Source: Gymnopus androsaceus JB14
Lineage: Eukaryota; Basidiomycota; Agaricomycetes; Agaricales; Omphalotaceae
DNA: 64,000 nucleotides
Assembly (NCBI GenBank): GCA_009733575.1
Contig: ML769430.1
Location: forward strand, 124,001 to 188,000
Direction of reading: 5' to 3'
Positions within the stretch are counted from its first letter, which is position 1. Every line of letters starts with the position of its first letter. The notes below the pieces were generated by a model, which saw only the letters and a list, made by a program, of their open reading frames with translations, did not search any database and was not told the origin of the DNA. Below are positions 1,462 to 64,000 of the stretch, one piece after another. A program made the position numbers and the translations under genes.

Positions 1462-1560
1462 CTTGAATTAACCTGCCCTTAACAGCCATGTGACAATCTT
1501 GAGAACTGTGACAGTGCGACAGCTGTCTCTTGCACCCGAACCACCACCATCATCTTGCAG

Positions 1561-4500
1561 ATGTTTGATCAAGCTCATGATTTTAACATCTATGATGGAC
1601 ATTTCAGTAATAATACATACTATGAGATATCTCAAGGTAAGAAAAATGGCAGCTATAAGTATGACAAACTGATTCATTGTTTAGATACTTTGAACAAACT
1701 GAATCCTGTTGAAAATGCCTCTTTCAAGGCTGACAACCACTCTCCTTGTCTCAAAGGAACCAGAACAGAACTCCTTGAAACTCTTTTGGAATGGGCTAAA
1801 GATCCCCACAGTCAACCCATCTTCTGGTTAAGTGGACTTGCTGGCACTGGTAAATCCACAATTGCTCAAAGCTTTTGTGAAATCTTGGAGAAACATAACT
1901 TGCTTGGTGGAAGTTTCTTTTGCTCCAGAGAGTCAGAAGACCGTCGAGAAGTGGGAAAAATTATTCCTACCTTAGCATATTTCTTGGCACAGCAACTCAA
2001 GCTGTACTATGACCAGATTATTCTTGCTTTGAAGGCAGATGCAACCTTGGCCTCCCAAGGAATCAAAAGGCAATTGGAGTCTTTATTCTTGCATCCATTG
2101 CAAAAGGTCAATTTCAATCAACATTGGCACCTCATCCTGGTCATAGATGCATTGGATGAATGTGCAGATATGGATGCAACTCAGAAAGTGCTTTCCATTT
2201 TGAGGATAATGCCAGCACAATTTTATTCACATATTCATGTCTTCATCTCCTGTAGGCCAGAATATTATATACAACAGGAATTTGAGAAGACTTTCAACAA
2301 AAACTTGTTTAAGCTCCATGACATAGAAAGTGAAATAGTTCAAAAGGATATTTTGCTATACTTGCAAAGGTCATTACATGACAAACCCATTTCTGAGAGT
2401 GAAATAATTCATTTATCAACACAGGCTGGCAAATTTTTTATCTATGCCTTTACTCAAGTGCAATATTTGAGGAAAGCTCCTGGTCAAGTAGCTCTAAAAT
2501 CCAGATTGGATGATCTTCTAAACAATAAGGTCATTGCTAAATCAATTGATGGCCTCTACAATCTTCTCTTGACAAAAGCAGCTGACTGCTTGGAAGCTGA
2601 TGAGAAGGAGGATGGAAAATACTTTGTAAATTTGATTGTTGCTCTATCTGACCCATTGTCACAACATGCATTATCTGAGCTGTGGAAACCTTGCGATGTC
2701 GATCCATTTAGATCAATCCTTGATATTCCTGAGTCTGAAAAGGCACCTATACATATCTTCCATGCATCATTTCCAGATTATATTTTGGACAAAGGCCGAT
2801 GCCATGAGGCATTTTACTGTGATTCAGATAATATTCAGCGAACAATGACTTTGGCATGTATTAAGCAGATGAACAAAAATCTGAAGTACAACATATGTAA
2901 CATGGGCATAAAGGACAATGTATCACTCTTCTCCAAAGCAAAAATTTCTTTGCCTCTACTATATAGCTGTAAATATTGGACATTTCACTTGACAAAATGC
3001 AAGAGTCTTTCAAGTGCAATATTAGTGCAGTTAGAGAAATTCGTTAAAGGATATTTCTTCTTTTGGATGGAAACTATTTGCATTCTGGAAGTCATAGAGA
3101 GTGCAATATTGGGATTAAAAGATGCTTTCAGCTGGTTTCAGGTAATGTTTGAATTGTGAAGTATAATACTACATAATGACTGATTTATACTTTAAATTAC
3201 AGCAATATAAAGATAAAAGATCAAAATATGTTCAGTCCATTATGTATGAGAGTCAAAGATTCTTGCAATCAATTGTTAGCCTTATAAAAAATTATCCACT
3301 ACAGTTATATTCTTCTGGATTAGCTTGGCTACCCAAGGACTCAGCTTTGCAGGACATCCGAAGTATCTGTAAAGACGCCATTCCGAAGGTGATTCATGGC
3401 CTAGAAGATACTTGGAATGCATGTGAGGTCATTATAAGAGATGCAGATGTGATAAAATGTGTTGAGTTTTCACCAGATGGTAAACATGTGATGTCTGGGT
3501 CTACTCATGCCATTTGTATGTGGAATGTTGTTACTGGACAGCAGATCCAACAACTTGAATGCCATGACACAATCCTTTCCATTGCCTTCTCACCAGATGG
3601 CAAAATGGTGTCTGGGTCCATGGACAAAGCCATTTGTATTTGGGCTATAGCTACTGGCCAGAAGATTCAAACAATTCAATGCCATGATGGTTCTGTGTTC
3701 TCAGTAGCATTCTCCCCAGATAGCAAACAGCTGATATCTGGATCTGAAAACACAATGTGTGTTTGGAATCCAGTCATTGGCCAGCAGATTCAAAAACTTG
3801 AAGGTCATGCAGACTGTGTGTCCTGTGTGGCATTTTCACCAGATGGAAAACAAGTGGTGTCTGGATCTAAAGATAAAACAGTCTGTATCTGGAATGTGGG
3901 TATAGGAAAGCAAATTCAAAAACTAAAAGGTCATTCAAACTATGTCAACTCTGTGGCATTTTCTACAAATGGCAAGAAAGTTGTATCTGGTTCTGATGAT
4001 GCAACAATATGTATCTGGAATGCAATTACTGGAATGCAAGTTCAAAAACTTGCAGGTCATTCACATGGGGTAATTTCTGTGGCATTCTCCCCCAATAGTC
4101 AAGAAGTAGTGTCTGGATCATGGGATACCACAGTTCGTATTTGGGATATATCTACTGGAAAGCAGACTCAAATTCATGAAGATCATTCTGGTGGGGTGAA
4201 ATCTGTCAGATTCTCATCAGATGGGGAAAAAGTGGTCTCCGGTTCAACTGATTGCACAGTTAGAATCAGAAATATAGCTACTAGACAATATCATCCAAAG
4301 TTGGAAGATCAGTCAGATAGTACACCTAGATCTCAGAATAAAATAGCTCATATCTGGAATGTTATCACTGGGAAAGAGATTAAAAAACTTGAAGGCCATT
4401 CTGGTTCAGTAGCATGTTTAGCATTCTCATCTGATGGCAAAAAAGTTGCCTCTGGCTCTTGGGATAGCACAGTTTGTATTTGGAATGCTGTAACTGGAAA

Positions 4501-5214
4501 GCTGATTCAACAACTTGAAGGCCACTCAGATTGGTTGTGTTCTGTAGAATTTTCACTGGATAGCATGCAGGTCGCGTCTGGCTCTCGGGATAACACAATC
4601 TGTATCTGGAGTGTTGATACTGGCAAGCTGATCCAAAAACTTCGAGGCCATCTTGATTGGGTGAATTCTGTTGCATTCTCACCAGATGGTAAACAAGTTA
4701 TATCTGGCTCTGATGATGAAACAGCCTGCATTTGGTCAATAGCTACAGGCAAACTGATCCAATTGCTTACTGGTCATTCTCGTTCCATAAAATTTGTTGC
4801 ATTTTCATTAGATGGAAAGCATGCATTGTCTTTCTCAAAAAAAGACACTGTGAACGGAACAGTCATCATCTGGGATGCATCTAACTGGATGCAGATTCAT
4901 TGTTTTGAAGCTAATATAATTGAGATGCCTAATCCAAAAATATTTTTTCCAATACCTGAAGTTTCAACTCTCAAAGGTGACTAAACTTTTGGCAATTAAA
5001 TTTATTTGCTGAATTTATTACTTTAGAAACATATACCTATAATTATGATTCACATTTCCTTGAATTATACACCCAAGATTCTAGTTCTGTGGAACTTTGG
5101 ATTTCACCGGAATATCAGCAAATCGAAACCCTTATTCGACATGAATTTACAGTTTCCTTTGGCTGTGATTCTGGTGCTGTTGTAATTATTCAGATGCCAG
5201 TCACTTGGGAATGA
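1561..5214 (+). CDS. NACHT-WD40 (NLR-like STAND NTPase) protein
   Basis: Predicted signal-transducing NTPase of the fungal NLR-like class; relatives act in non-self recognition and heterokaryon incompatibility. I join three exons: 1561-3141, 3203-4976 and 5027-5214. The introns are 61 and 50 bp with GT-AG ends and phase that closes exactly, giving about 1,180 residues. Residues 92-100 are a Walker A (GLAGTGKST) and 191-201 a Walker B (LILVIDALDEC). The start FDQAHDFNIYDG is typical of the basidiomycete family. The second exon holds about 11 WD40 repeats, one of them degenerate. The third exon adds about 62 residues ending in VTWE. An AG lies directly before the ATG, so an upstream exon is possible. 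The hAT-like MITE just upstream may have truncated the 5' region. Confidence 0.85.
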
Positions 5215-6290
5215 AAGTCTCACATCAGCAAAAGGTCAAATTACTTCTGGGACTTGTTGGAATATCAAAGGTATTTTTACTTTGTACTATCTATGGAATG
5301 CTTGCTTATAGTCTCTGCATTGATCAAATCCTTTTGTACTAACACCTCATACACGACATCTTACTCTCTCAAGGTATCTACATATGTTCTCATGTAGTAG
5401 CCACAGATTTTCTTGCAGTAGCCACCTACTATTTATACCTATATGACATTGCTAGCTAGGACTTGTATATAAAGCCTAAATACTTACTGTACAATAACAA
5501 GTGGTCTTTTTGTCCCCATCAATCTGTGTGATTGTTTTACTAAGTGCCATGTGCATTTACTGCTGCTACTTCCTTTTTAGGGTATATCTCTAATAGGTTA
5601 TGGGCCCTGCCCTTAACCATTGACACACTATAGTGGTATAACCCTTGTTCATGTCACAGAGGATTAATTCACTGCCACCAGTAACATGAAGAACTGCATC
5701 TGGCCAAGCTGCAGCAGCAGCTGCATCTAAACAGACACCACCACCCCCATAACCTCCTGCCACAGACCCAAAAGCTCACTGTGCATGTGAACCACATGTT
5801 TATGTTATTGACAATATCCTAGATAGGTATCCAAACCCCAGCAGTGGCAAGTAGGCAGAGTGCAAGAAGCAACCTTGCCCAAATCAATACAATGTTTCAT
5901 GGAACAAAGAATATGAACCATTTGCCAGGCCAATCAAAAAAAGCCAAGAAGAGGCTATCAGAACCCATTTAGCCCACATTGCTATATTACCAAGCAAACG
6001 ACCAGTAGCATCATCCTCATCCTCCCAAAGACCCACTCATGCACCACAGCAGCTCCAACTCCCCAAACACCAGCTCCATTACCAAAACCAGAACCTACTC
6101 CTATCCCCCAGCTTACTGCACAACAAGATTGACCAACCAACCTTCCACATCAATCTCTATCACCAGATCCAGATCCAGATCCTAGACCACCAGACACTTT
6201 AGTTACAGATCCAGATTCTGATGATGACAGCATGTCAAAAGCATTGAAAGCCTTCGATAAGGTAGTCTCGAGAATCCAGACTCAAATGAT
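5215..6290 (+). pseudogene. Decayed coding sequence between the WD40 genes
   Basis: From about 5,700 to 6,120 one forward frame reads as protein-like sequence broken by stops. Segments include HVYVIDNILDRYPNPSSGK and YNVSWNKEYEPFARPIKKS, followed by a Pro/Ser/Gln-rich tail. The regular composition suggests a once-coding exon, perhaps of a retroelement or an unknown protein. I do not recognise the family. 5,215-5,640 shows nothing else. Confidence 0.35.
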
Positions 6291-6409
6291 ACTATGTATG
6301 TAGAAAGGACACCCCATTTATACTTAAGTATTATTCCATTTTGGAAGAACAGTTTGCAATTTAAGCCTCAAGTAAAAAAGAGGTTGAGGATACAAAAGCA
6401 AGTACAAAG

Positions 6410-7995
6410 TCAGATCACTCATATAATATTGAATGGACACAATCATTGTGTAAATTCAGTGGCCTTTTCACCTGATGAAACAAGAGTTGTATCTGGCTCT
6501 GCTGATAAAACTGTAAGGATCTGGGATGCCACTGTCACTGGTGCTCAGATAGGTGATCCTCTGGAAGGCCATGATGATTCAGTTCTTTCTGTAGCCTTTT
6601 CACTGGATGGAACTAGGATTGTCTCTGGCTCTGATGACAAGAAGCTGAGGATCTGGGATGCAAGCACAAGTGCTCAGATTGGTGATCCTCTGGAAGGACA
6701 TGGTGATTGTGTCAATTCAGTGGCCTTTTCACCTGATGAAACCAGAATTGTTTCTGGCTCTGATGATAAGACACTGATGATCTGGGATACCACCACTGGT
6801 GCTCAGCTAGGTGATCCTCTGGAAGGTCATGGCTATTGTGTCAATTCAGTGGCCTTTTCATATGATGGAACCAGAATTGTGTCTGGCTCTGCTGCCAAGA
6901 CACTAAGGATCTGGGATGCCACAACTGGTGTTCAGATTGGTGATCCTCTGGAAGGTCATAATACTTATTGTGTCTATTCAGTGGCCTTTTCACATAATGG
7001 AACCAGGATAGTGTCTGGCTCTATGGATAACACAGTAAGGATCTGGGATGCTACCACTAGTACTCAGATAGGTAATCCTCTGGAAGGTCATGTTGATTCA
7101 GTTATGTCAGTAGCCTTTTCACCAGATGGAACAAGGATTGTGTCTGGTTCTAAGGATAGGACAGTAAGGATCTGGGATGCCACCACTGGTGTTCAGATAT
7201 GTAATCCTCTAGAAGGACATGACAGCCATGTCTCTTCAGTGGCCTTTGCACCTGATGGAACCCAAATTGTGTCTGGATCTGATGACAATACAATAAGGAT
7301 CTGGGATGCAATGACTGGTGCTCAGAATGATGATTCTCTGGAAGGTCATCATGATTGGGTCCATTCAATGGCCTTTTCACTTGATGGAGCCAGAATTGTG
7401 TCTGGCTCTAGGGATAAGACCATCAGGATCTGGGATGCCACCACTGGTGCTCAGATAGGTAATCCTCTGGAAGGTCATGATGATTATGTCCATGCAGTGG
7501 CCTTTTCACCTGATGGAACAAGGACTATTTCTGGCTCTGGTGATAAGACAGTAAGAATCTGGGATGCCACTACTGGTGCTCAGACAGGTGAACCTCTAGA
7601 GGGTCATGTCTATTCAGTCAATTCAGCAGCCTTTTCACCTGATGGAACAAGGATTGTGTCTGGCTCTATGGATGAGACAGTAAGGATCTGGGATACTGTG
7701 ACTGGCACTCAGATAGGTAATCCTCTGGAAGGTCATGATGATTTTGTCCGCGCAGTGGCCTTTTCACCTGATGGAACCAGAGTTGTGTCTGGTTCTTGTG
7801 ATAAGACATTAATGATCTGGGATGCCACCACTGGTGATCAGACAGGTGATCCTCTGGAAGGTCATGATGATTATATTCAATCAGTGGCTTTTTCCCCTGA
7901 CAGAACAAAGATTGTTTCTGGCTCTTCTGACAAGACAGTAAGGATTTGGGATGCCACCACTGGTGCTCAGATAGTTGATCCTCTGGAAGACCACA
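6410..7995 (+). repeat. Tandem 129-nt WD40-coding repeats
   Basis: Twelve consecutive units of about 129 nt (one with 3 extra nt) carry nearly unchanged blocks such as GTGGCCTTTTCACCTGATGG and AGGATCTGGGATGCCACCAC. Conservation at the nucleotide level, including silent positions, indicates recent amplification or gene conversion within the array. Confidence 0.85.
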
Positions 7996-8003
7996 ATGAT
8001 TCA

Positions 8004-8523
8004 TAGGGTTTTAAGGTCCAATTCAATTCAGTTTATTTGCCAAATTTTCAATGAATCATGAATTGCACCAGTGCAAGATTTTTTGAAACCTGGATGAACT
8101 GTAAACTGGCACTGGTTTAAATGGTCCATCAGTGCAATCTTTAGCAGTGCATTTTTCAGTGCAGTTCAATGCAATTCACAATTTAAACTGGCTTGAACTG
8201 GTCATTCTTATATCTAAAGATAGAGTACCTCAGCATAATAATGCCAACCCAGCTGGTAATTGTCCTGTTTATCATGTATATACTATTGGAAATGTAATTT
8301 CAGCATGATAAGAGTGCTCAAAGCTCTGTTTGTATTAATATTAATTTGCACAGATTTAAACTGATGCAAGGCAGTTTAAGTAATTTTTAAAAATTGAATG
8401 CACCATGAACTGGCACTGATTTAAACTGTGCATCAGTGCAGCCTTCAGCAGTGCATTTTGCAGTGCAATCCAATGCAATTCACAGTTTATTTGCAGTTCA
8501 TTGAATTGGACCTTAAAACTCTA
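8004..8523. mobile_element. hAT MITE inserted in WD40 gene, 8-bp target duplication
   Basis: The element starts TAGGGTTTTAAGGTCC and ends with the inverted form (TAGAGTTTTAAGGTCC on the opposite strand). It is flanked by perfect 8-bp copies of ATGATTCA at 7996-8003 and 8524-8531. An 8-bp duplication is the hAT hallmark. At 520 bp it has no coding capacity. Inside, two imperfect direct repeats (about 8105-8185 and 8411-8490) carry clusters of CAGTGCA. Removing it restores the host WD40 frame exactly. Confidence 0.92.
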
Positions 8524-10113: not shown

Positions 10114-10362
10114 TGCAATCTTGGACTACACTTTCTTGACACTTTCTTCCTCCTGCCTTTAGGCTCTCCCAAACTGACTATCTAAATCATTATCCTTGCC
10201 TAGCCTAGCTGGGACTGTTTAATCTAACCCACACTTTTATCCCTCATCCAGTTCATAAAATGAGTATAAATAAATCAAATCAGTGAAGAAACATATGTAG
10301 ATTCCATACCACTACCTCCCACTCTTTTATTCTATTGTCACACCCTTTGTAAGTGTTTGGTA

Positions 10363-10540
10363 CATCAGCAAAACCTGGGTGATCCCATAGCAAGGTCCCC
10401 TTCTGTGCAGCTCTGCACAGTTCTGTACAGCAACTGATCTATATCAATTCCCGATCAATTGCTGTACAGCTCTGTACAGAGCTGTACAGAGCTGCACAGA
10501 GGGGGACCTTGCTATGGCGAACACCCAGGTTTTGCTGATG
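10363..10540. mobile_element. Foldback MITE copy B (complete)
   Basis: The best copy of the family: perfect 19-bp terminal inverted repeats CATCAGCAAAACCTGGGTG, a TA on each side, and an inner inverted repeat (CCATAGCAAGGTCCCC with its complement) around CTGTACAGAGCTG motifs. Length is 178 bp with no coding capacity. TA target duplications suggest a Tc1/mariner-like mobiliser. Confidence 0.75.
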
Positions 10541-11233
10541 TAAGTGTTGTCACCTAGGACTGCCTGTGCATTGTGAGTCGATTGGACCAGTTCTGACAAC
10601 ATAACAACAACCATATTACCTGGTAAATGGCTAACTTGTCTTAGTTGGAGTCGGAATTGAGATGTGGAATACTGTAATGATTCAGCGAGAATCGAGAGTT
10701 CAAGGAAACCTAAGTTTAGTTAGTGCCAAGTAACTTGAATAATGACCTGAAATACCTCTTCGCGTCGATGAGCTTTCACTTCTATTGTCGTCGAAGTTGG
10801 AAGTCGAATCAGTGAGCTTGCGCGTCTACTGGGCGGCTTCCGTCAATCTTACGTTCACACGTGAAGATTAAACAAAGGGTACTTGTATTTGGTCAAAGAG
10901 TTAGTTAAAGTTACATTCGGGATGTTCTATTCTTTAAGTATTGTTACTGTATGTACTTATAGAAAGTTATAGAAGGTCAAAGAAAGGAAAGGAATATTCT
11001 TCATAACTGAGTCAGTGAGGAATGACTCTGCTGAGGGACTGTCAACTAACCTATCAGATGTCAAGGTCCCATCACAAATACCTGATTATTCTTGTGGCTC
11101 AGTCTCTCTACAAGTCAGAATTGTCTTCCTGGCACCAGGCATTCCACTGACTAGCAGCCAATGCTTTGAAACAAAGCTCTATGATACCCGGACCGCATTG
11201 GAGACCTTGGAAATTAACAATATAAGATTGCAA
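10541..11233. other. Intergenic stretch without supported gene
   Basis: No open frame with protein-like content or splice pattern was found on either strand. Confidence 0.35.
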
Positions 11234-29083: not shown

Positions 29084-30680
29084 TCAGCAATACGACAAAC
29101 TAGTAGACAAGGCCTGTGGGGCATACTTGGGTCCATTTACCCAGGAATCTGTCGGACAAGTCAGCCCTCTGCCATTTCGAGATATCGTTGGTATCTCGTA
29201 TCGAGGGGTCAAGTCGGAGTTCATGGTGTTGAGTTGCGAGTAAGAGCCGAACGAGCTTGACCAGTCGATGTCGCCGGAGTTCATAACCCCCGTATTCCAG
29301 TTGCGTTCCGGAATAGAGGCCAAAGGTTGGTCATTCATCTAAGAATGAAAGATCAGAGCGGAAATTACTGATAGCGAGACAAAAAAAACTAACGAAGGAA
29401 AATCCACTCATCGTGTAGGCTGGTACCGCGGGTAGCAACTCGGTACTCGATTCTGGATATGTGAAATTATAGACGACAGAAATATGTGCGTGGTCGTTCG
29501 AATCACTTGAAGCTATCGGGGAAGCAATATACAAAGTCTGGACAATAGTAAAACGAGTAGGTGCTTTCCCAAGATTAGATGCAAGACATAAAAATTGATC
29601 TCATTAAATCGCAACTCACTGGTACTTTCACAGAGTGACTGCCAGAGGCTAGGAACCAAAGAAACGCCGTACAGGCTTCCAGAGCTTCTTGTACGAGGGT
29701 ACTCCGTCAAAACGGCAGATTCGGTGTGTATGGGTAGTCCAGTGTTATCGGCAAACACGGAGAAAGAACAACGACGCTCGAGAGAATAAGGTGAAGCGAA
29801 GGTAACCGTTGGCTCTAGATTCGATAACAATCCGGCGTTCATGGAATCAAAGCACGAGAGTGGCGGGTTAATGCCCGAAGTTGGTGCAAGATGGATGACC
29901 AGGGGCATGACCTTCTCGGTTGTTTACAATGTTGATGACTGGTGGTAGAGAAGACCACGATAGTCGCTCCAAGACAATGTTCACCCAGACGGGTTTTCCA
30001 TCAGAAAAACTGCCTTGAGACAGTCGCATTTCCGGAGCAGGAGATGGGGAACCGCTGTACGTGGATCCACCTGAATCTCCGTCATTCTCAACATTGCGGC
30101 GAGAAATTAATTGCATGACTGCAACCATAAGTTTAGAACTTTCATTCATAATCAAAGATAACGACACAAACTTTTATCGCTCTTGCAGGTATCTCGTAGC
30201 TGCTGGAGACGACTACCAACTTGTTTTGGAGTCCTTCGCTTTCCAGCAGTTTCGAATATGTAGTCCGAAATGAAACGGTTTCTCATGCTGAAACGACCCA
30301 AAGTCTTGCTTGATCGCGAATCGTCGGGTCTGTACTTCTCCAGCGCTATTGAAAATCAGCAACTCGTCATGGTATGAGGAGGAAGATGGAGGTTTACCTT
30401 CGATTAGAGCGGCCTCCCTGTTTCATAAAAAATTAGGAACATAGATAATGCCATGAAGATGGTAGACATACAGATGAGGGGGCCAAACCGCTTCGCCTCT
30501 ACCCTTTAACGTTTTCCAACTTCGTCGTCCGGTCGCTACAATTTGAGCGGCATCGCGCGTCTTCTCCTCCACCGAAGGAGTGTATGACAGATCTTCGACA
30601 GTGGACATGGAGACATAACCAGTATGCGGCTTCTTAGATGAGTTGGTCTTGCGAGAGCTGTGGTCAGAGTAAGGAGCCAT
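29084..30680 (-). CDS. TEA/ATTS-domain transcription factor (stand-alone copy)
   Basis: DNA-binding regulator of the TEAD/AbaA/Tec1 class. Exon 1 (30472-30680) begins MAPYSDHSSRK and ends at WPPHL. A 20-nt exon (30398-30417) and then 30172-30345 complete the TEA domain, with LGRFSMRNRFISDYIFETAG and KRRTPKQVGSRLQQLRDTC. Exon 29620-30118 encodes a Ser/Pro-rich start and a conserved-looking block (KPVWVNIVLERLSWSS, ERRCSFSVFADNTG). Later exons end at a stop at 29084. Compared with its paralogue at 59 kb it has one extra base in AACAACCGAG (about 29,917), and the following exon junction does not close cleanly, so the C-terminal half may be disrupted. This is the intact parent of the domain fused to the kinase at 60 kb. 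Confidence 0.78.
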
Positions 30681-50304: not shown

Positions 50305-52517
50305 TCAGGTAGGTCCAAGCTGATACAAGCAACGGTAAGAGGTAAAGTCAAAGGTAGGAATGACTCGACAGGGAGTTTTATATACTAGGGAGCCTGGGTA
50401 AATAATTACATCGTTATACTGAGGATCTGAAGAAGTATAAGCATAAGGGGGAGGAAGAATCTCTGCCATCAATGGAGAACCTCGAGTAGATGGCTGGTTA
50501 TGCAAGGGTACGGACGGAAAATTACGAGGCGTAGGTGGTGCCAGAGGTCTCCGCTTGGGAGATAACTGCTTGTGATGAGGCCTAGAATGCGTACGCTCAA
50601 ATTGCCCACATAACTAGTAAATGTCAAAATAAATATATGTAACTCTTCAAGCACTGAAATTTCAGCTCACCACTTTTCCGGGAATGACGCTGCTTCTCCT
50701 CCAGGTACTTGTTTTGGTAGTAGAGCAATTAAAGCACCTTGGGCGTACATAGTTCAGAGTGGATCCCCTGCCCAGATCAAAATGAGGGCTATGAATAAGA
50801 AGACCACAAAGAAAAAAAACCTTAGAGGTTTCAACCTTCTGGAATCACTATTCCTCTCTCGCTTGGTCCATTCCTGCATTGATAGTTCAACCATAAATGT
50901 CTTGACAGTATGCCTTTTATCCGGAGCTAGCCAGCATCTCTCTACTGCTGTCCATAGTCGATCAGAGAATCCCTCTACTGGTCGCAGTGGGCGAAATCCA
51001 TGCATGACTTGGATGGATACTGCAATATCAGGCTTTACTTCAGAGAAAGGAGGCGAACCAGTAATGATCTATAACAAGTTTAATATGAGTGTTCTGAACC
51101 CAAAGTTGAACAGCTGGCCTCAAAAACTGTACATCCAAGCGAGTACATATCCGTTGAAGTGGATAGTTTTGAACTTGTTGTATAATCAAATAATTCCGGA
51201 GCCATCCACCTGATACTTCCGTTGGTACCATGTCCTGTCGAAGCCGGCGTTTGCAATGTGCTCATCATTCCTGCTAGACCGAAATCAGCGAGACAACATT
51301 GCCCAAGATCAGATACTAGAATATTGGCCTACATTCAAAGTATCAGTTGAAAGGGTAGTAGAAAGAAAAGAAGCTGGCATACGCCTTTGAGATCCCCATG
51401 AACTACTGGCGGATTTCGTGTGTGTAGGTATTCCAGCCCTTGCAAGATATCCAATATCTAAAGCGGGAGTGGTAAGTGTTTGGATGTTAAAATCATAATG
51501 GAGTGACTTGCGATTCCCGTCTTGTTGGCTTCAGGATGAGTGCTCAGATAAATCATAACATTGCCATGGCTGCACCAGGGCGAAACCAAGCAATAGGTGT
51601 CCGGGAACAGGTCCATGTTTGTGCCCAGAAAAGGAAGAACATTTGGATGCTCCAGCTGGCTCCAAACCAGTGCTTCTTGGGAGAACTCCTAGATCGCAAT
51701 GAGCGGGCATCTATGTAGTAAGATATCACATAGCGGAGTAGAAGGTACCTTGAATAATTGTTTCCTTGAGGCCTCTGTTGTGAAAACGCGAAGAACCTTG
51801 AGACATACGGGTTCTCCACTTGCCGTCTGCCCTTTCCAGATATCCTACAATACAGTAATTAACAATCAAGAGTCACTGTATAGCTGGATGAAATGTGCGC
51901 ACCGCGTACCCTCCACCCCATTTCGGATGATTTCCCCCCTTCGTAAGACCCCGAAGGCAAAGTGAAGAAGGAAGTATCTCGAATTCTCGTGCAATACGTC
52001 GAGTGCATCTGAATAGTTCAAATTTTAAGTCATCTGTAGTTGAGAGCCTGGATTCCTGTCCCAAAGCATAAATTAATCTCAACAGAACAATCTGAGTAAA
52101 GAGCACATACCCAATAAAGCAGCTCAAGAAGAACATCAATCCGTGATGATATGCTCCATTCTACACGATCCCATGGCTTTTTACTGGCAAGAACGTTTCG
52201 AAATGAGGGATCGTCGAAACTTGACAATGAAAGCTCCGTGGTTTTCCGTCGGAATGGATAGACCATACGCCACTAGTTGAACGTACAAGATGTGCTTGTG
52301 TCTGGCCGTGGCGATCAAGGACTTTGCTGGTAATGTGTTCTGCTGTCCTAGGTTCTGATCCAAGGGTAACAAGGTCACTTTCCACAACTTGAACATGACT
52401 GCAAGTTGAAACTGTATGACCACGGCCATGATTTAGATCTCTAGTGGTAGGACGAGAGGGTCCCTGAGAGCGTGTACGACGATTTTCATGACCTCCGTAA
52501 GGACGATGACGGTTCAT
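50305..52517 (-). CDS. TKL-type protein kinase fused to a GATA-like zinc finger
   Basis: Predicted Ser/Thr kinase of the basidiomycete tyrosine-kinase-like expansion with a C-terminal GATA-type DNA-binding segment. Nine exons: 52111-52517, 51903-52055, 51749-51844, 51512-51688, 51383-51457, 51119-51328, 50821-51068, 50671-50767 and 50305-50613, about 589 residues. Kinase motifs are VCLKVLRVF, VVHGDLKGANILV, LADFGLAG and RWMAPEL. After HTVKTFM the frame passes a 53-bp intron (50768-50820) into PRCFNCSTTKTSTWRRSSVI, PGKVLCGQFERTHSRP and a Pro-rich tail, a GATA finger whose second Cys pair has lost one Cys. Exon 1 has two surplus bases (about 52,210-52,225) relative to the 61.8-kb paralogue. Introns after exons 4 and 6 use GC donors. 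Confidence 0.72.
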
Positions 52518-53328: not shown

Positions 53329-53950
53329 ATGTGTTCTCAACTCTACCCTAAGCCATATACCATCTACGAACTCGGACTCGGATCACCGAGGGCCTTACCA
53401 TTCCCGATACAGAAAATCTAGCCTCGATCCCACAGACGCCGAAACCTCTAGATCAAAAGCGGCCCAGGCAAAGTAGTAGAGGATTATTCACTGGCTCTGG
53501 GTCCACTATTACATCCACTGCTGGCATTCCGAAGTATCCCAAATCCCAGGATCGGAATCTGAATCAGTATGCATAAAAATATCAAGTATCATCATCGTCC
53601 TAGACCGCGCCTCTGTGGACTAGACTCCCCGGACCCCGTGCCTTGGTTGAACATGAGTTGTTGGAGTCTGAGAGCGGAGGTGATGAGGGTATAGTTGTAC
53701 GAAGCTGTTTAGAGTCTGGTAGTGCGAGATCAATCCGCTTTGAAGGAGGGAGAGGACAAATCCCAAAACGTGCCTATTATCCGAGTCCTAGCGAGCCTGA
53801 TTCCAGATGGATGTAACGCATAGGATAATATTAATGCTAGTCCAGTATCAAATGGAGTCTGTGATTTAAGCGCTAGAGTTGACGTGCATTGGGAGAGCGA
53901 AGGTGATATGAGTAGCATTCAATTCGAATGGTCCCATGGGCAGATACAAT
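53329..53950 (+). pseudogene. F-box-like gene relic (copy 1)
   Basis: From ATG 53329 the DNA follows the F-box-like gene at 62,420 (both begin with TCTCAACTCTACCCTAA-type sequence and share CTCTGTGGACTAGACTC). Frames break repeatedly by small indels, and the long C-terminal part is missing. It is divergent from the kinase, as in the other copy. The 53,255-53,268 stretch upstream is a poly-T run. Confidence 0.65.
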
Positions 53951-59034: not shown

Positions 59035-61817
59035 GAGTCATAGTTCATAGCCCCGTATTCCAGTTGCGTTCCGGAATAGGGTCATTCATCTAAGAATGAA
59101 CGATCAGAGCAGAAATTACTGAGAGCGAGACAAAACGACTAACGAAGAAAAATCCACTCCTGTTGCGGGCCGGCACTACGGGTAGCAACTCGGTACTTGA
59201 TTCTGAATATGTGAAATTATAGACAACGGAAATACGTGCGTGTTCCTTCGAATCACTTGAAGCTGTCGGGGAAGCAATATACAAGCTTTGGACAATAGTA
59301 AAGCGAGTAGGTGCTTTCCTAAGATTAAATGCAAGATAGAAATATATCTAGGATCGCGACTTACTGGTGCTTTCGCAGAGCGACTTCCAAAGACTAGGAC
59401 CAGCGAAACACCGTACAGGCTTTCAGAGCTTTTCTCACGCAAGTGCTCCGTCAAAACGGCAGACTCGGTATGTATCGGTGGTCCAGTTTTATCGGCAAAC
59501 ACGGAGAAAGAACAATGACGTTCCACAGTATAAGGTGAAGCGAAGGTAACCAGATTCGATAGTAACCCGGTATTGATCGAGTCAAAGCGCGAGAGTGACG
59601 GGTTAACACCAGAAGCCGGTGCAAGATGGATGACCAGGGGCATGACTTTCTCGTTGTTAACAATGTTGATAACCGGCGGTGGAGAAGACCATGATGATCG
59701 CTCCAAGACAATATTAACCCAGATGGTTTTTCCGGTATGTTGAATATGTTCATCACGCATAGCTGCAATACACAATTTAGAACTCATTCATGCTCAAGAA
59801 AAGAGAATGAAAATGAGACTAACTTTTATCCCTTTTACGGGTGTCTCGTAGCTGCTGGAGACGATTGCCCACTTGTTTTTGACTCCTCCGCTTTCCAGTG
59901 GTTTCGAATATATAGTCCGAAATGAAACGGTTTCTCATGATGAAACGACTCGAAGCCTTGCTTGATTGTGAGCCATCAGGTGTGTATTTTACCAGCCCTG
60001 AGTGAAAATAAGCAATTGTATGAGGAGTAGCGAAATGATGTTTGCCTTCTATTAGAGCGGCATCCCTGTTCAAAAATGAGTAATGAATCAGACTATGCAG
60101 AAGGTAGACATACAGATAAGGGGGCCAAATCGCTTCGCCTTTACCCTTCAAGGTATTCCGAGTTCGTCGTCCCGTCGCTACAATTGGGACGACATCCCGT
60201 GTCTTTTCCTCCAAACTTTCCGAATCATCATAGCTTACTTCCGTAATCCATGCCCGCATCGACGGATCTTCCATGAATGTCTTGACGGTATGCCTGTTAT
60301 CCGGATTCAGCCAGCATCTCTGCACTGTCGTCCACAGTAGATCAGAGAACCCCTCTACCGGCCGCAACGGTCGATATCCACGCATGACCTGGATGGATAC
60401 TGCAATGTCAGGCTTTACTTCAGAGAAAGGAGGCGAGCCGGTAACGATCTATAACAAATTTAACATGAGTATTCTGAACCCAAAGCTAAACAACTGGCCT
60501 CAAAAACTGTACAACCAAGCGAGTAAACATCCGTTAACGTGGATGGTCTTGAATTCGTTGTAAAATCAAACAGTTCTGGAGCCATCCATCTGACACTTCC
60601 ACCGGTACCGTTTCCTGTCGAGGATGAGAGCGTTTGCAATGTGCTCATCATTCCTGCTAGACCGAAATCAGCGAGACGACATTTCCCAAGATCAGATACT
60701 AAGATGTTGGCCTACAATAAAAATTCAGTTCAAAGGCAATAGGAAAAAGGGATTGACGAACGCCTTTGAGATCCCCATGAACTACCGGTGTATTTCGTGT
60801 ATGAAGATATTCCAGCCCTTTAACAATATCCCATATCTATGGTGAGTGTTAAGTGTTTGGACGTTGAAATATAACGAAATGACTCGCAATTCTCATCTTG
60901 TTGGCTCCAGGATGAGTACTCAGATAAATCATAACATTACCATGGCTGCACCACGGCGATACCAAGCAATAGCTTTCCGGGAAAAGATCCACGTTTGTGC
61001 CCAGAAACGGAAGGACGTTTGGATGCTCCAACTGGCTCCAGATCAGTGCTTCTCGGGAGAACTCCTAAATCGCAATGAGTGGCCATCTAGTATGTATAGC
61101 GGAACAGAAGAGACCTTGAATATTTCTTTCCTTGAGGCTTCCGTGGTAAATACGCGAAGAACCTTGAGACATACAGGGTCTCCATTTGCTGTTTGTCCTT
61201 TCCAGATATCCTACATTACAACAAATAGCGATCAAAAACTCACTACATAACAGGATAAAAAGTTCGTACCGCGTACCCTCCACCCCCTGTCGGGTGATTT
61301 CCTTCCTTCGTAAGACCCCGAAGATAAAGGGAGGAGGGGAGTATCTCGAATTCTCGCACAATACGCCGAGTGCATCTGAATAGTTCAAATTTGAAGTCAT
61401 CTGCTACTGAGAGCCGTGATTCCTGTTACAAAGCATAAATCAACTTAATACAAGGTCTGAGCAAAGAGCACATACCCAGTAAAGCAGCTCAAGAAGAATA
61501 TCAATGCGAAGAGGTGTGTTCCATTCTACATTATCCCATGGCTTTTTACTGGCAAGAACGTTCCGAAATGAAATGTCGTCAAACTTGACAGTGAAAGCGT
61601 TACCCATGGGCACCGGATGAATAATCCATACGCCGCTAGTTGAACATATAAGATGCGCTTGTGTCTGGCCGTCGCGATCGAGGACTTTCCTGGTAATGTT
61701 CACCGTCCGGGATTCCGCTCGAACGTGACTGTCAGTAGAAGGACCAGGAGTATCAGTGATTCCCTGAGAACCCGTACGACTATTTTCACCACCTCCGTGA
61801 GGATGATGGCGACTCAT
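59035..61817 (-). CDS. TKL-type protein kinase fused to a TEA/ATTS DNA-binding domain
   Basis: Chimeric gene. Kinase exons are 61476-61817, 61270-61422, 61115-61210, 60888-61064, 60762-60836, 60499-60711 and 60114-60448; they match the 50-kb kinase. Motifs: VCLKVLRVF, VVHGDLKGANILV, LADFGLAG, RWMAPEL, RCWLNPDNRHTVKTFM. Within exon 60114-60448 the frame continues without a stop into LEEKTRDVVPIVATGRR and GEAIWPPYL, the start of the TEA gene. Then come a 20-nt exon (60046-60065, GC donor) and 59824-59997, with SSRFIMRNRFISDYIFETTG and KRRSQKQVGNRLQQLRDT. All phases close through the TEA domain, about 528 residues. Exon 59365-59762 continues the TEA-factor body but has one missing base near 59,415 against the parent. 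The last roughly 60 residues of the parent are absent. Confidence 0.75.
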
Positions 61818-62419
61818 CTTGGCTCTAGTCCAACTGTGAACCTTGTACTAGGACAGTGCGATCTGAGGAGGGGAGAAGAAGGAAGGAAGATGATTTAGGG
61901 CCCACTAAAGTCCTAAAGACCAAGAAGCTATTGAGAAGCTGTTTCTTCTGCCACGAACATTCAGATTGTGACATAAATACCCTGGACACCCTGTTACCAC
62001 CGGCAGTCTGTACTAGTGGAGGCTCGGTTCCGATATAGGACGCATTATCCCAGCATTGTATGTAGTCAGCCGGATTCACATCATGTCGTCTTTCTAGATA
62101 CAGATACAGACGAAGAATGCAAAGTAATCTGAACGTATGATAGGTACAGATTTCCAACCGTCATGGGCAATTCGTAGCGATACCCCAACCTCCGATCTGT
62201 CCAACCCGAAGGCCACAAGGAAAAGCCTGAAGAACCCGTCGATTTAATCGACGCACGATAGCGGAAGCGGAATCTAATCTAACATTAATTTGAGTGAGGA
62301 GGCTTAGCCAGGCTAGCGCCGGAAAAAAAAAGCCTACAGAATTAAATTTGCTTTGTTTTTTTCTTCCTTCCACGTCCGTCCCTCTGTAATAATCGCTTCC
62401 ATATCGGGAGCCAGCGACC
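61818..62419. promoter_or_regulatory. Divergent region between kinase fusion and F-box gene
   Basis: About 600 bp between two divergent start codons, paralogous to 52,518-53,328. Both promoters presumably lie here. No defined element was recognised. Confidence 0.4.
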
Positions 62420-64000
62420 ATGACCTCCTCTCAGCTCTACCCTAAACCATCTACCGCCTACGACTTCAGACTCGGAGCACAGAGGAACCTTTCCTGTCCC
62501 TACAGAAATCCTAGTCTCGATCTTCCAGATAACGTTCGCATCGTTGAAGCTGACGCCGAAGCTTCTAAATCGACACGAATCGTTAGAGGCCAAGGAAAAG
62601 CAGGAGCAGAACAGAGCTTGGGTCCCCTAGTATCTGCCGACGTCATAGCCCAAGATCGGAATCCGAGTAAGAATACATATCCATTGCGCTCATTACATCA
62701 GAGAAATATCTTATCACTCGTCTGTAAAACATGGAACATCATCGTCCTAGGCACCGCGCCTTTGTGGACTAGACTCTCCGTTCCTTGGTGGTGCCCTACG
62801 ACCACGCTGATTGAGTTGTTGGAGAGGTCTGGCGGGATGGGAGTCGAGATGATGATGTATGGCGCTTTGGATTCTGGTTCGACTTTTCAGGAGAACGAGG
62901 ACGACAGATTCCATAAGATGCATATTATCCGAGTCCTAGCTAGCCATTCATATAGACTCCAATGACTTCAAATGGATGTAACGCATAGCATAATGCTAGA
63001 CCTGTCGAGTATGGAAATGGAGTTTCGGGTCTTGGAAGAGCTGCAGTTGATGTGCATTGGGAGCGCGATTGTGAATGGAGAAGACAGTAGGAGGCATTTG
63101 TCGTTTAGCAGGAACCAGGAAGAGGGTGGGGATGATGGTCATGATGATGAAGACGGAGGCGAAGTGGAGAATCGTGTTGTTATCGGCGTTGGGATAGACG
63201 GAAACGCCGCTTCGGAGGTTGGACTATCAACGTTGAACGCCTTCCTTCGAGCACCTCGACTGGTTAGAGCCACCATCATCGACAACGAGAGTGTGTACAA
63301 CGGTCAGAGCTACAGCTCTTGCATACAGCTTCCGTGGTACCAGTTGTGTTCGTTAAGCTGTACAGGAAAATATCTCCCGCATATTCGTGCGCCTACACCA
63401 ACTACAGAAGATGCAGTTGAGCCTTCTACTAGCTCCATCTTTCCCCAGCTCACGCATTTTTCGATACTCCCCAGTCCCGGCATCGCCTCCTTCAACGCAT
63501 CCGGACTACTTTCCTTGATAATCCGGCCCTTGAAACCCTCACGATAGGGCAATACGCGCATATGGAAGCCCAAGCGTTCCTCCAACGCTCGGTGTCTGCA
63601 GGTGCCCGTGTCCGTAAACTAGATGCCAAACATGCATGGATCTTTCGCTCCTGCCTCCTACCCATGCTCAACACGATTGAAGGCAACCTTGAGGAGCTAT
63701 ACCTGACCGTCGACACGCATAGTGACTGCGGGAGATTGTGGAGGCATATGATATATCCTGCAGAGCATCCGGGTACAGTAAGAACATCACTGATGCCTCT
63801 CCGTCGTTTACCCAAGCTCCGTAAACTGGTAGTAACCATGAGTGAGTACACAACATCGTTTCCCGATTCCTTCGACGGTACGGGATTCGTGGACATGCAT
63901 CGGTCTCGAGCTGCGAAAGAGGGAGCGACGGAGGAGACGCCACGGCTCCAAGTAGAGATGCGAAACATGCATTATTATCCGAAGAAAGTGACAGATATTA
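62420..64000 (+). pseudogene. F-box/LRR-like gene, interrupted, runs off window
   Basis: Resembles the basidiomycete F-box-like family: an N-terminal region with RNILSLVCKTWNIIVLGTAPLW (F-box helix) followed by LRR-like strands (FRVLEELQLMCIGSAIV, TLNAFLRAPRLVRATI, and later ALETLTIG, EELYLTVD, LPKLRKLVVTM). The first frame stops at 62,963-62,965 (TGA in RLQ-stop-LQMDV) and resumes in the same frame, consistent with a TGG-to-TGA change. A second break near 63,490-63,530 shifts the frame before LDNPALETLTI. The 3' end lies beyond 64,000. Such proteins normally act as ubiquitin-ligase adaptors; this copy is probably inactive or contains sequence errors. Confidence 0.65.

Follow-up and report, generated by a model that had tools for sequence, protein, structure and literature searches.

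TKL kinases have been reported to be expanded in Laccaria bicolor, and that report lists a Fungal_trans domain that occurs once in the kinomes studied (PMC2838846). For the FslK lineage of Agaricomycetes, additional domains were recorded in 16 of 241 members and are not pursued in the available text of that study (PMC3937382). In plants, the kinase-fusion and tandem-kinase immune proteins Lr9 (PMC10260399) and Pm4 (PMC12830362) carry an extra domain that is proposed to be a decoy. For plant NLRs, the integration of decoys has been described as both frequent and recurring (PMC5067614), and fungal NLRs are likewise known for repeated fusion to new domains (PMC4986451). Neither a kinase-TEA fusion nor recurrent domain capture by fungal TKL kinases was found in our search of the literature, which covered titles and the openings of abstracts, was biased towards open-access papers and had preprints outside its range. 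Here we describe a gene that joins a TKL kinase to a TEA DNA-binding domain. It is located on contig C48 of Gymnopus androsaceus JB14 (Omphalotaceae), whose genome assembly comprises 83.3 Mb in 934 contigs. The gene lies within a stretch of 64,000 nucleotides, referred to below as the window, to which all coordinates relate unless another contig is named.

The whole fusion gene extends over 59176-61817 on the minus strand. In the splice-site model, translation starts from an ATG at 61817 and nine exons remain in phase as far as 59824, exactly as the original prediction had proposed for the path from the kinase start codon into the TEA domain. A tenth exon (59762-59365) extends the same frame. 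This ten-exon model, which predates our discovery of the deposited protein P0001, is identical to the first 661 residues of that protein. An eleventh exon (59313-59176) was fitted to P0001, and with its addition the translation equals P0001 letter for letter. P0001 comprises 706 amino acids and was deposited as a "kinase-like protein". According to Pfam, residues 160-411 form a kinase domain (PK_Tyr_Ser-Thr, 124.5 bits against a cut-off of 23.1) and residues 457-523 a TEA domain (82.6 bits against a cut-off of 25.1, and 82.7 in the deposited P0001). On the minus strand, the kinase domain occupies 60272-61287 with its introns included, as judged from Pfam and a motif check that found the Gly-rich loop, the Lys and the HGD, DFG and APE motifs all present; the catalytic Asp is D278 of P0001. 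The TEA domain is spread over exons 7-9 (59840-60136, minus strand). Exon 7 (60114-60448, minus strand) is a single open frame, in which the late part of the kinase leads over into the beginning of the TEA domain, and holds the junction. We conclude that the gene is a genuine, intact-looking kinase joined in frame to a TEA domain.

The presence of GC donors in introns 4, 6 and 8 had raised some suspicion about this model, which we rejected for the first two. In an alignment of 10 close paralogs, the GC donor was found at intron 4 in all 10 and at intron 6 in six, so that these two donors are features of the family. Intron 8, in the TEA part, has a GC donor in the fusion and a GT donor in the stand-alone TEA gene of the window; the second intron of the fused TEA domain has its GC donor at 60045. 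At the other end of the gene, exon 1 (61476-61817, minus strand) encodes an N-terminal region to which the splice and structure models assign strands and helices. Residues 41-145 of P0001, ahead of the kinase, are confidently modelled as strands followed by helices and have no match in Pfam. This region may be the output part of the kinase head.

The original prediction regarded the gene as an in-frame fusion of two duplicated blocks, and this view is supported by comparisons within the window. The kinase half (60247-61699) is 83% identical at the DNA level to 50867-52336. The latter stretch belongs to kin50, which sequence comparison places at 50754-52517 on the minus strand and which is a kinase paralog with a short hydrophobic end and no recognised tail domain; exon 1 of kin50 meets stops if the exon borders of the fusion are applied. 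The TEA half is 79-83% identical at the DNA level, beginning at 60213, to TEA29, a stand-alone TEA gene at 29084-30680 on the minus strand, the end of which was read by eye. The junction zone on the minus strand can therefore be placed at 60213-60247, since kinase DNA similarity stops at 60247 and TEA similarity starts at 60213; translated kinase similarity reaches slightly beyond 60247. At the junction, the fusion has a TGGA that it shares with both the TEA gene and an unfused kinase paralog on contig C51. The junction has taken the place of the final few codons of the kinase gene and of the initial codons of the TEA gene. The ending of the unfused C51 paralog is likely the old ending of the kinase gene. 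Next to the fusion, a stretch within open frames on the plus strand (62393-63547) also has a counterpart beside kin50: 62900-63074 is 70% identical to 53752-53906, for which reason a larger block was probably duplicated. The view that the fusion replaced the sole TEA gene was abandoned, since the genome holds six TEA matches; TEA29 is itself frame-shifted.

The same kinase head carries other tails elsewhere in this genome. We compared 16 kinases, the fusion among them; close copies reside on many contigs, and the lists of matches are lower bounds. Eight of the 16 have an identified tail and two have a stop soon after the kinase; the other six kinases are those of C97, C693a, C413, C291, C22 and C189. 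Besides the TEA domain, the tails are Fungal_trans_2 (P0017 on C320), C2H2 with Fungal_trans_2 (C9), DUF6699 (P0019 and P0020, both on C32), PB1 (C81) and a second kinase (C51). The C693b kinase, of which one exon was checked, has by translation a tail like that on C9 (87% identical). The splice junctions of these tails are deduced, as are the joins on C81 and C51. A single open exon holds both the end of the kinase and the first half of a zinc finger in the C9 and C693b copies. The two kinases with an early stop, kin50 and the other C51 copy, reach it shortly past the kinase in the exon-7 frame. For each of the four tail types searched, out of five with DUF6699 left aside, another copy was found in the genome, namely TEA29 for TEA, C82 for Fungal_trans_2, C121 for the second kinase and, for PB1, a copy that lies roughly 5 kb upstream from the fused one on C81. 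Among the matches listed, no TKL head was seen beside the copies on C82, C121 and C81 (206-208 kb). The captured second kinase on C51 (~135.4-136.1 kb) reads HCGLK, and its relative on C121 reads HCDLK. Such a change removes the catalytic Asp and should abolish catalysis.

Tails were also present on homologs in other fungi. A search with the kinase half scored 7992 proteins, 1065 of which were homologs at an E-value of 1e-20 or better; 120 of these 1065 were listed, including P0001 and other proteins of the same genome. At least one non-kinase Pfam domain was present in 24 of the 120 listed homologs, according to a precomputed column. A single kinase match was recorded for 64 of them, 19 of which carry another domain, and several kinase matches for the remaining 56. 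As the search was confined to a length range in which long proteins are favoured, these shares are not family-wide rates. A Pfam rescan of 20 proteins (19 of the 24 and one further protein, P0016; P0100, P0123, P0126, P0129 and P0135 were left out) revealed tails with homeodomain, bZIP, Piwi with CCCH, RRM, dsRNA-binding, RhoGEF, CNH, PBD and SH3 domains. Further tails comprised a response regulator, an AMP ligase, a cyclophilin fragment, DUF6699 and others. The C1 domain of P0035 and the PH_10 domain of P0115 fall just under the Pfam cut-off, yet are counted among the 24. In P0090 of Moniliophthora roreri, a TKL kinase head is combined with a CCCH zinc finger and a Piwi domain; such a connection to an Argonaute-type protein was unexpected for a kinase.

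A tree of 65 kinase domains, drawn from the 64 single-kinase proteins and P0016 and leaving out the 56 multi-kinase proteins, placed kinases with unlike tails as sisters, for example TEA beside Fungal_trans_2 (support 100/96), PH-CNH beside a response regulator (100/99) and DUF6699 beside dsRNA-binding (100/97). A single clade for the four DUF6699 fusions was rejected by the approximately unbiased test (p-AU 8e-7), this group having been chosen after the tree was seen. Since sister kinases carry different tails, we consider that tails were captured repeatedly, and their turnover seems to outpace the divergence of the kinases.

The kinase-TEA fusion is no lone curiosity either. The author of the original prediction knew of no other example. 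Our search with the TEA half, restricted to lengths of 0.55-1.75x the query, retrieved 16 TEA proteins among 888 candidates, and two of these, P0001 and P0016, also contain a kinase. P0016 was deposited from Cristinia sonorae (Agaricales, Stephanosporaceae) and has the kinase followed by TEA, in the same order as P0001. When the search was started from P0016, 88 TEA proteins were found among 204 candidates, with a kinase in P0016 only. The kinase of P0016 sits on a very long branch away from the 64 others in the kinase tree, where the placement of the P0016 row is unsure, and its TEA half is close, at 69-74%, to stand-alone TEA proteins such as P0136-P0138, of which P0138 is from Cristinia itself. 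Because the P0016 kinase is so distant and its TEA half so close to stand-alone TEA proteins, the combination most likely arose twice.

The two halves of the fusion appear to be under different constraint. Exons 2-7 of the kinase contain no stop and no indel, and the ratio of nonsynonymous to synonymous changes (dN/dS), obtained here throughout from pairwise counts, is 0.18-0.29 against 10 paralogs. The kinase changes private to the fusion comprise eight replacements and five silent changes, a ratio of 0.24. For the TEA half the pairwise dN/dS against TEA29 is 0.31 (98 codons), with the protein changes mostly on the fusion side. Of 77 columns that are invariant in nine stand-alone relatives, 19 are changed in the fused copy and two in TEA29 (Fisher p 8e-5). 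With so many invariant columns changed, we class the fused copy as a carrier of a TEA domain and not as an ordinary TEA factor. The changes, at residues invariant in the nine relatives, include a Trp to Arg directly upstream of the domain and a Ser to Asn in one helix, which we take to be the recognition helix. Exon 10 (59365-59762, minus strand) retains part of the TEA gene's C-terminal region and keeps the ancestral frame until a loss of 1 nt near 59400; this C-terminal part has a pairwise dN/dS of 0.25 against TEA29 (106 codons). TEA29 has its own shift of the C-terminal frame at a different place, by a 1-nt insertion near 29919, and decay or assembly error are alike possible for both. Judged by these comparisons, the TEA half is no longer under the full constraint of its family, while the kinase half stays conserved.

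Structure prediction was carried out on two alignments. With one of them, the kinase and the region preceding it are modelled well, with ten-residue blocks of 88-94 pLDDT for residues 41-160. With the other, which contained TEA rows, the three TEA helices are still predicted, with ten-residue blocks of 88-97 that drop to 66-68 in the loop as well as at the end, although this model is poor as a whole (mean pLDDT 49.7).

We tentatively favour the view that the captured TEA copy serves an active kinase as a bait or for docking. A TKL kinase of mushrooms that brings its own start region would have been joined repeatedly, by way of duplications and deletions, to spare copies of other cellular genes. 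In this fusion, the kinase head would be active and the captured TEA copy would mimic the real TEA factor. Something that binds or modifies TEA factors, whether a partner or a factor of competitor or viral origin, would thereby be brought to the kinase, where it could trigger or receive phosphorylation. Such a mode of action has been proposed for plant kinase-fusion immune proteins with integrated decoys. We prefer this role because the conserved head with changing tails, the retention of another copy of the captured gene, and the loosened or inactivated state of the captured copy resemble the integrated decoys of plants.

Several observations weigh against the bait role. The loosened TEA half fits drift just as well. 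The constraint on the kinase half of the fusion draws on small numbers of private changes (eight replacements and five silent). The private replacement-to-silent ratio ranges from 0.04 to 1.04 across 11 kinase copies, albeit with small counts, and for this reason not every kinase copy can be regarded as constrained. In Cristinia, the TEA half of P0016 is not significantly looser than P0138 (5/54 versus 1/54 columns changed, p 0.21), the direction being as expected. Retained copies were sought for four of the five tail types, without DUF6699. Moreover, several tails are enzymes or scaffolds for which we know of no role as pathogen targets. Finally, P0029, P0079 and P0091, which have their kinase at the C-terminal end, may be merged gene models, and the same may be true for some of the fusions in other species.

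The strongest competing explanation is a neutral fusion in a birth-and-death family, with a functionless TEA half that is drifting. Frequently duplicated kinase copies would occasionally come to lie in frame ahead of a second duplicated gene. We regard this as a serious alternative and rate it only slightly lower than the bait role. The 19 changed TEA columns and the 1-nt loss in the C-terminal region are what drift would produce, kin50 and TEA29 have frame problems as well, and the kinase copies are many, some of them paired on one contig, with private ratios near 1 in sisters such as C693a. However, a kinase half with dN/dS values of 0.18-0.29 and neither stop nor indel is not readily reconciled with neutrality. 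The dN/dS of the TEA half is likewise below 1, though its changes fall mostly on the fusion side, and TEA tails, like those with DUF6699, were captured on more than one occasion.

In the original prediction, the architecture was thought to link phosphorylation to promoter binding. The corresponding scenario is a bifunctional regulator: recruited by the TEA domain to TEA target promoters, the kinase would phosphorylate proteins bound there. In its favour, the fused TEA domain scores far above the Pfam cut-off and can still be aligned with TEAD DNA-binding domains of solved structure. The kinase-TEA combination also occurs a second time, and relatives carry homeodomain, bZIP or fungal transcription-factor domains. 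The fusion has, however, lost invariant residues, among them the Trp and Ser described above, the end of the C-terminal region is frame-shifted, and the same kinase family bears other tails that do not bind DNA. We consider a promoter-bound kinase unlikely, since constraint is being lost in precisely the TEA half and many tails are unrelated to promoters, and the proposed link is weakened. The interpretation given in the original prediction therefore holds only partly.

The gene might alternatively give rise to two products, through splicing of an additional intron or through separate transcripts, such that a kinase-only protein is made and the TEA part is rarely translated. A candidate intron of 61 nt (60178-60238, minus strand; GTAAGC...TTGTAG) is present around the junction, with its donor (GTAAGC) at 60238, its acceptor (TAG) at 60178 and, by eye, a stop soon after, so that its removal could end the protein shortly after the kinase. 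The junction does lie within the open exon 7, as had been proposed, but its asserted independence of splice prediction was slightly overstated for this reason. We nevertheless consider two products improbable: the TEA half lacks its own first codons, there is no in-frame Met between the junction and the domain, no branch-point-like motif was seen by eye in the candidate intron, and the deposited P0001 model leaves the intron unspliced and reads through. An artefact of assembly or annotation, by which two reads or gene models were falsely joined, is hardly credible despite the 934 contigs, the clusters of similar copies and the differing sizes of the record bearing P0001 (307,593 bases) and contig C48 (296,636 bases), because both halves differ by 17-21% from the 50-kb kinase and the 29-kb TEA gene, which excludes a misjoin or chimera of these window copies, and because the junction lies within a single open exon, just as C9 and C693b join another tail within one open exon.

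Some further features of the window were noted. At 1483-4984 on the plus strand, about 55 kb from the fusion, a NACHT-like NTPase (GLAGTGKST, by eye) is followed by WD40-type repeats and resembles a fungal NLR-type gene. A WD40-type array of about 12 units (6261-8006, plus strand; 129-bp period, 78% matches) is of a kind known from fungal recognition genes. An inverted self-similar stretch lies at 10361-10542 (alignment of 190 columns), and a minus-strand gene at 54.2-55.5 kb with the P-loop SCKGGVGKST probably encodes an Ind1/NUBPL-type ATPase (by eye).

Taking the bait role one step further, mushrooms might possess a kinase-based recognition system parallel to the kinase-fusion immunity of plants, in which the heads of an expanded TKL family, having captured copies of host regulators (TEA, homeodomain, bZIP, Piwi, RhoGEF and others) as integrated decoys, would sense viruses, bacteria, competitors or foreign mycelium that attack the genuine proteins. 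We regard this wider proposal as rather doubtful. If the decoy reading were true, the captured domains would amount to a list of the proteins that are attacked by the enemies of mushrooms, and fungi would have evolved a plant-like immune trick independently. Even if it were wrong, the family would represent a natural experiment in kinase-domain shuffling, with the same head on different tails and with some joins, including the present one, inside a single exon.

Compared with TEC1, AbaA and TEAD, the fusion is alike in having a TEA domain above the Pfam cut-off and a partly kept C-terminal region, and differs in having a kinase in place of the N-terminal codons, in its 19 changed invariant columns out of 77 and in its shifted C-terminal frame. 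With FslK it shares a TKL-type kinase expanded in Agaricomycetes, and the homolog P0041 is labelled TKL/TKL-ccin; by label and taxonomic resemblance, membership of its kinase in FslK is likely. Fungal NLRs (PMC4986451) show similar repeated and independent domain swaps on a conserved module. In contrast, the exchanged part of the fusion family follows a kinase, and a Pfam scan of the fusion protein gave no NACHT or NB-ARC match. The plant kinase-fusion proteins differ in being plant proteins for which disease resistance is proven. The likeness to these plant proteins lies in the extra domain on a kinase, in the tandem kinases of 56 of the 120 listed relatives and in a second kinase that looks inactive. 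It further lies in the repeated capture of both varied and identical domains, and, for four of the five tail types, in a captured domain that has another copy in the host genome.

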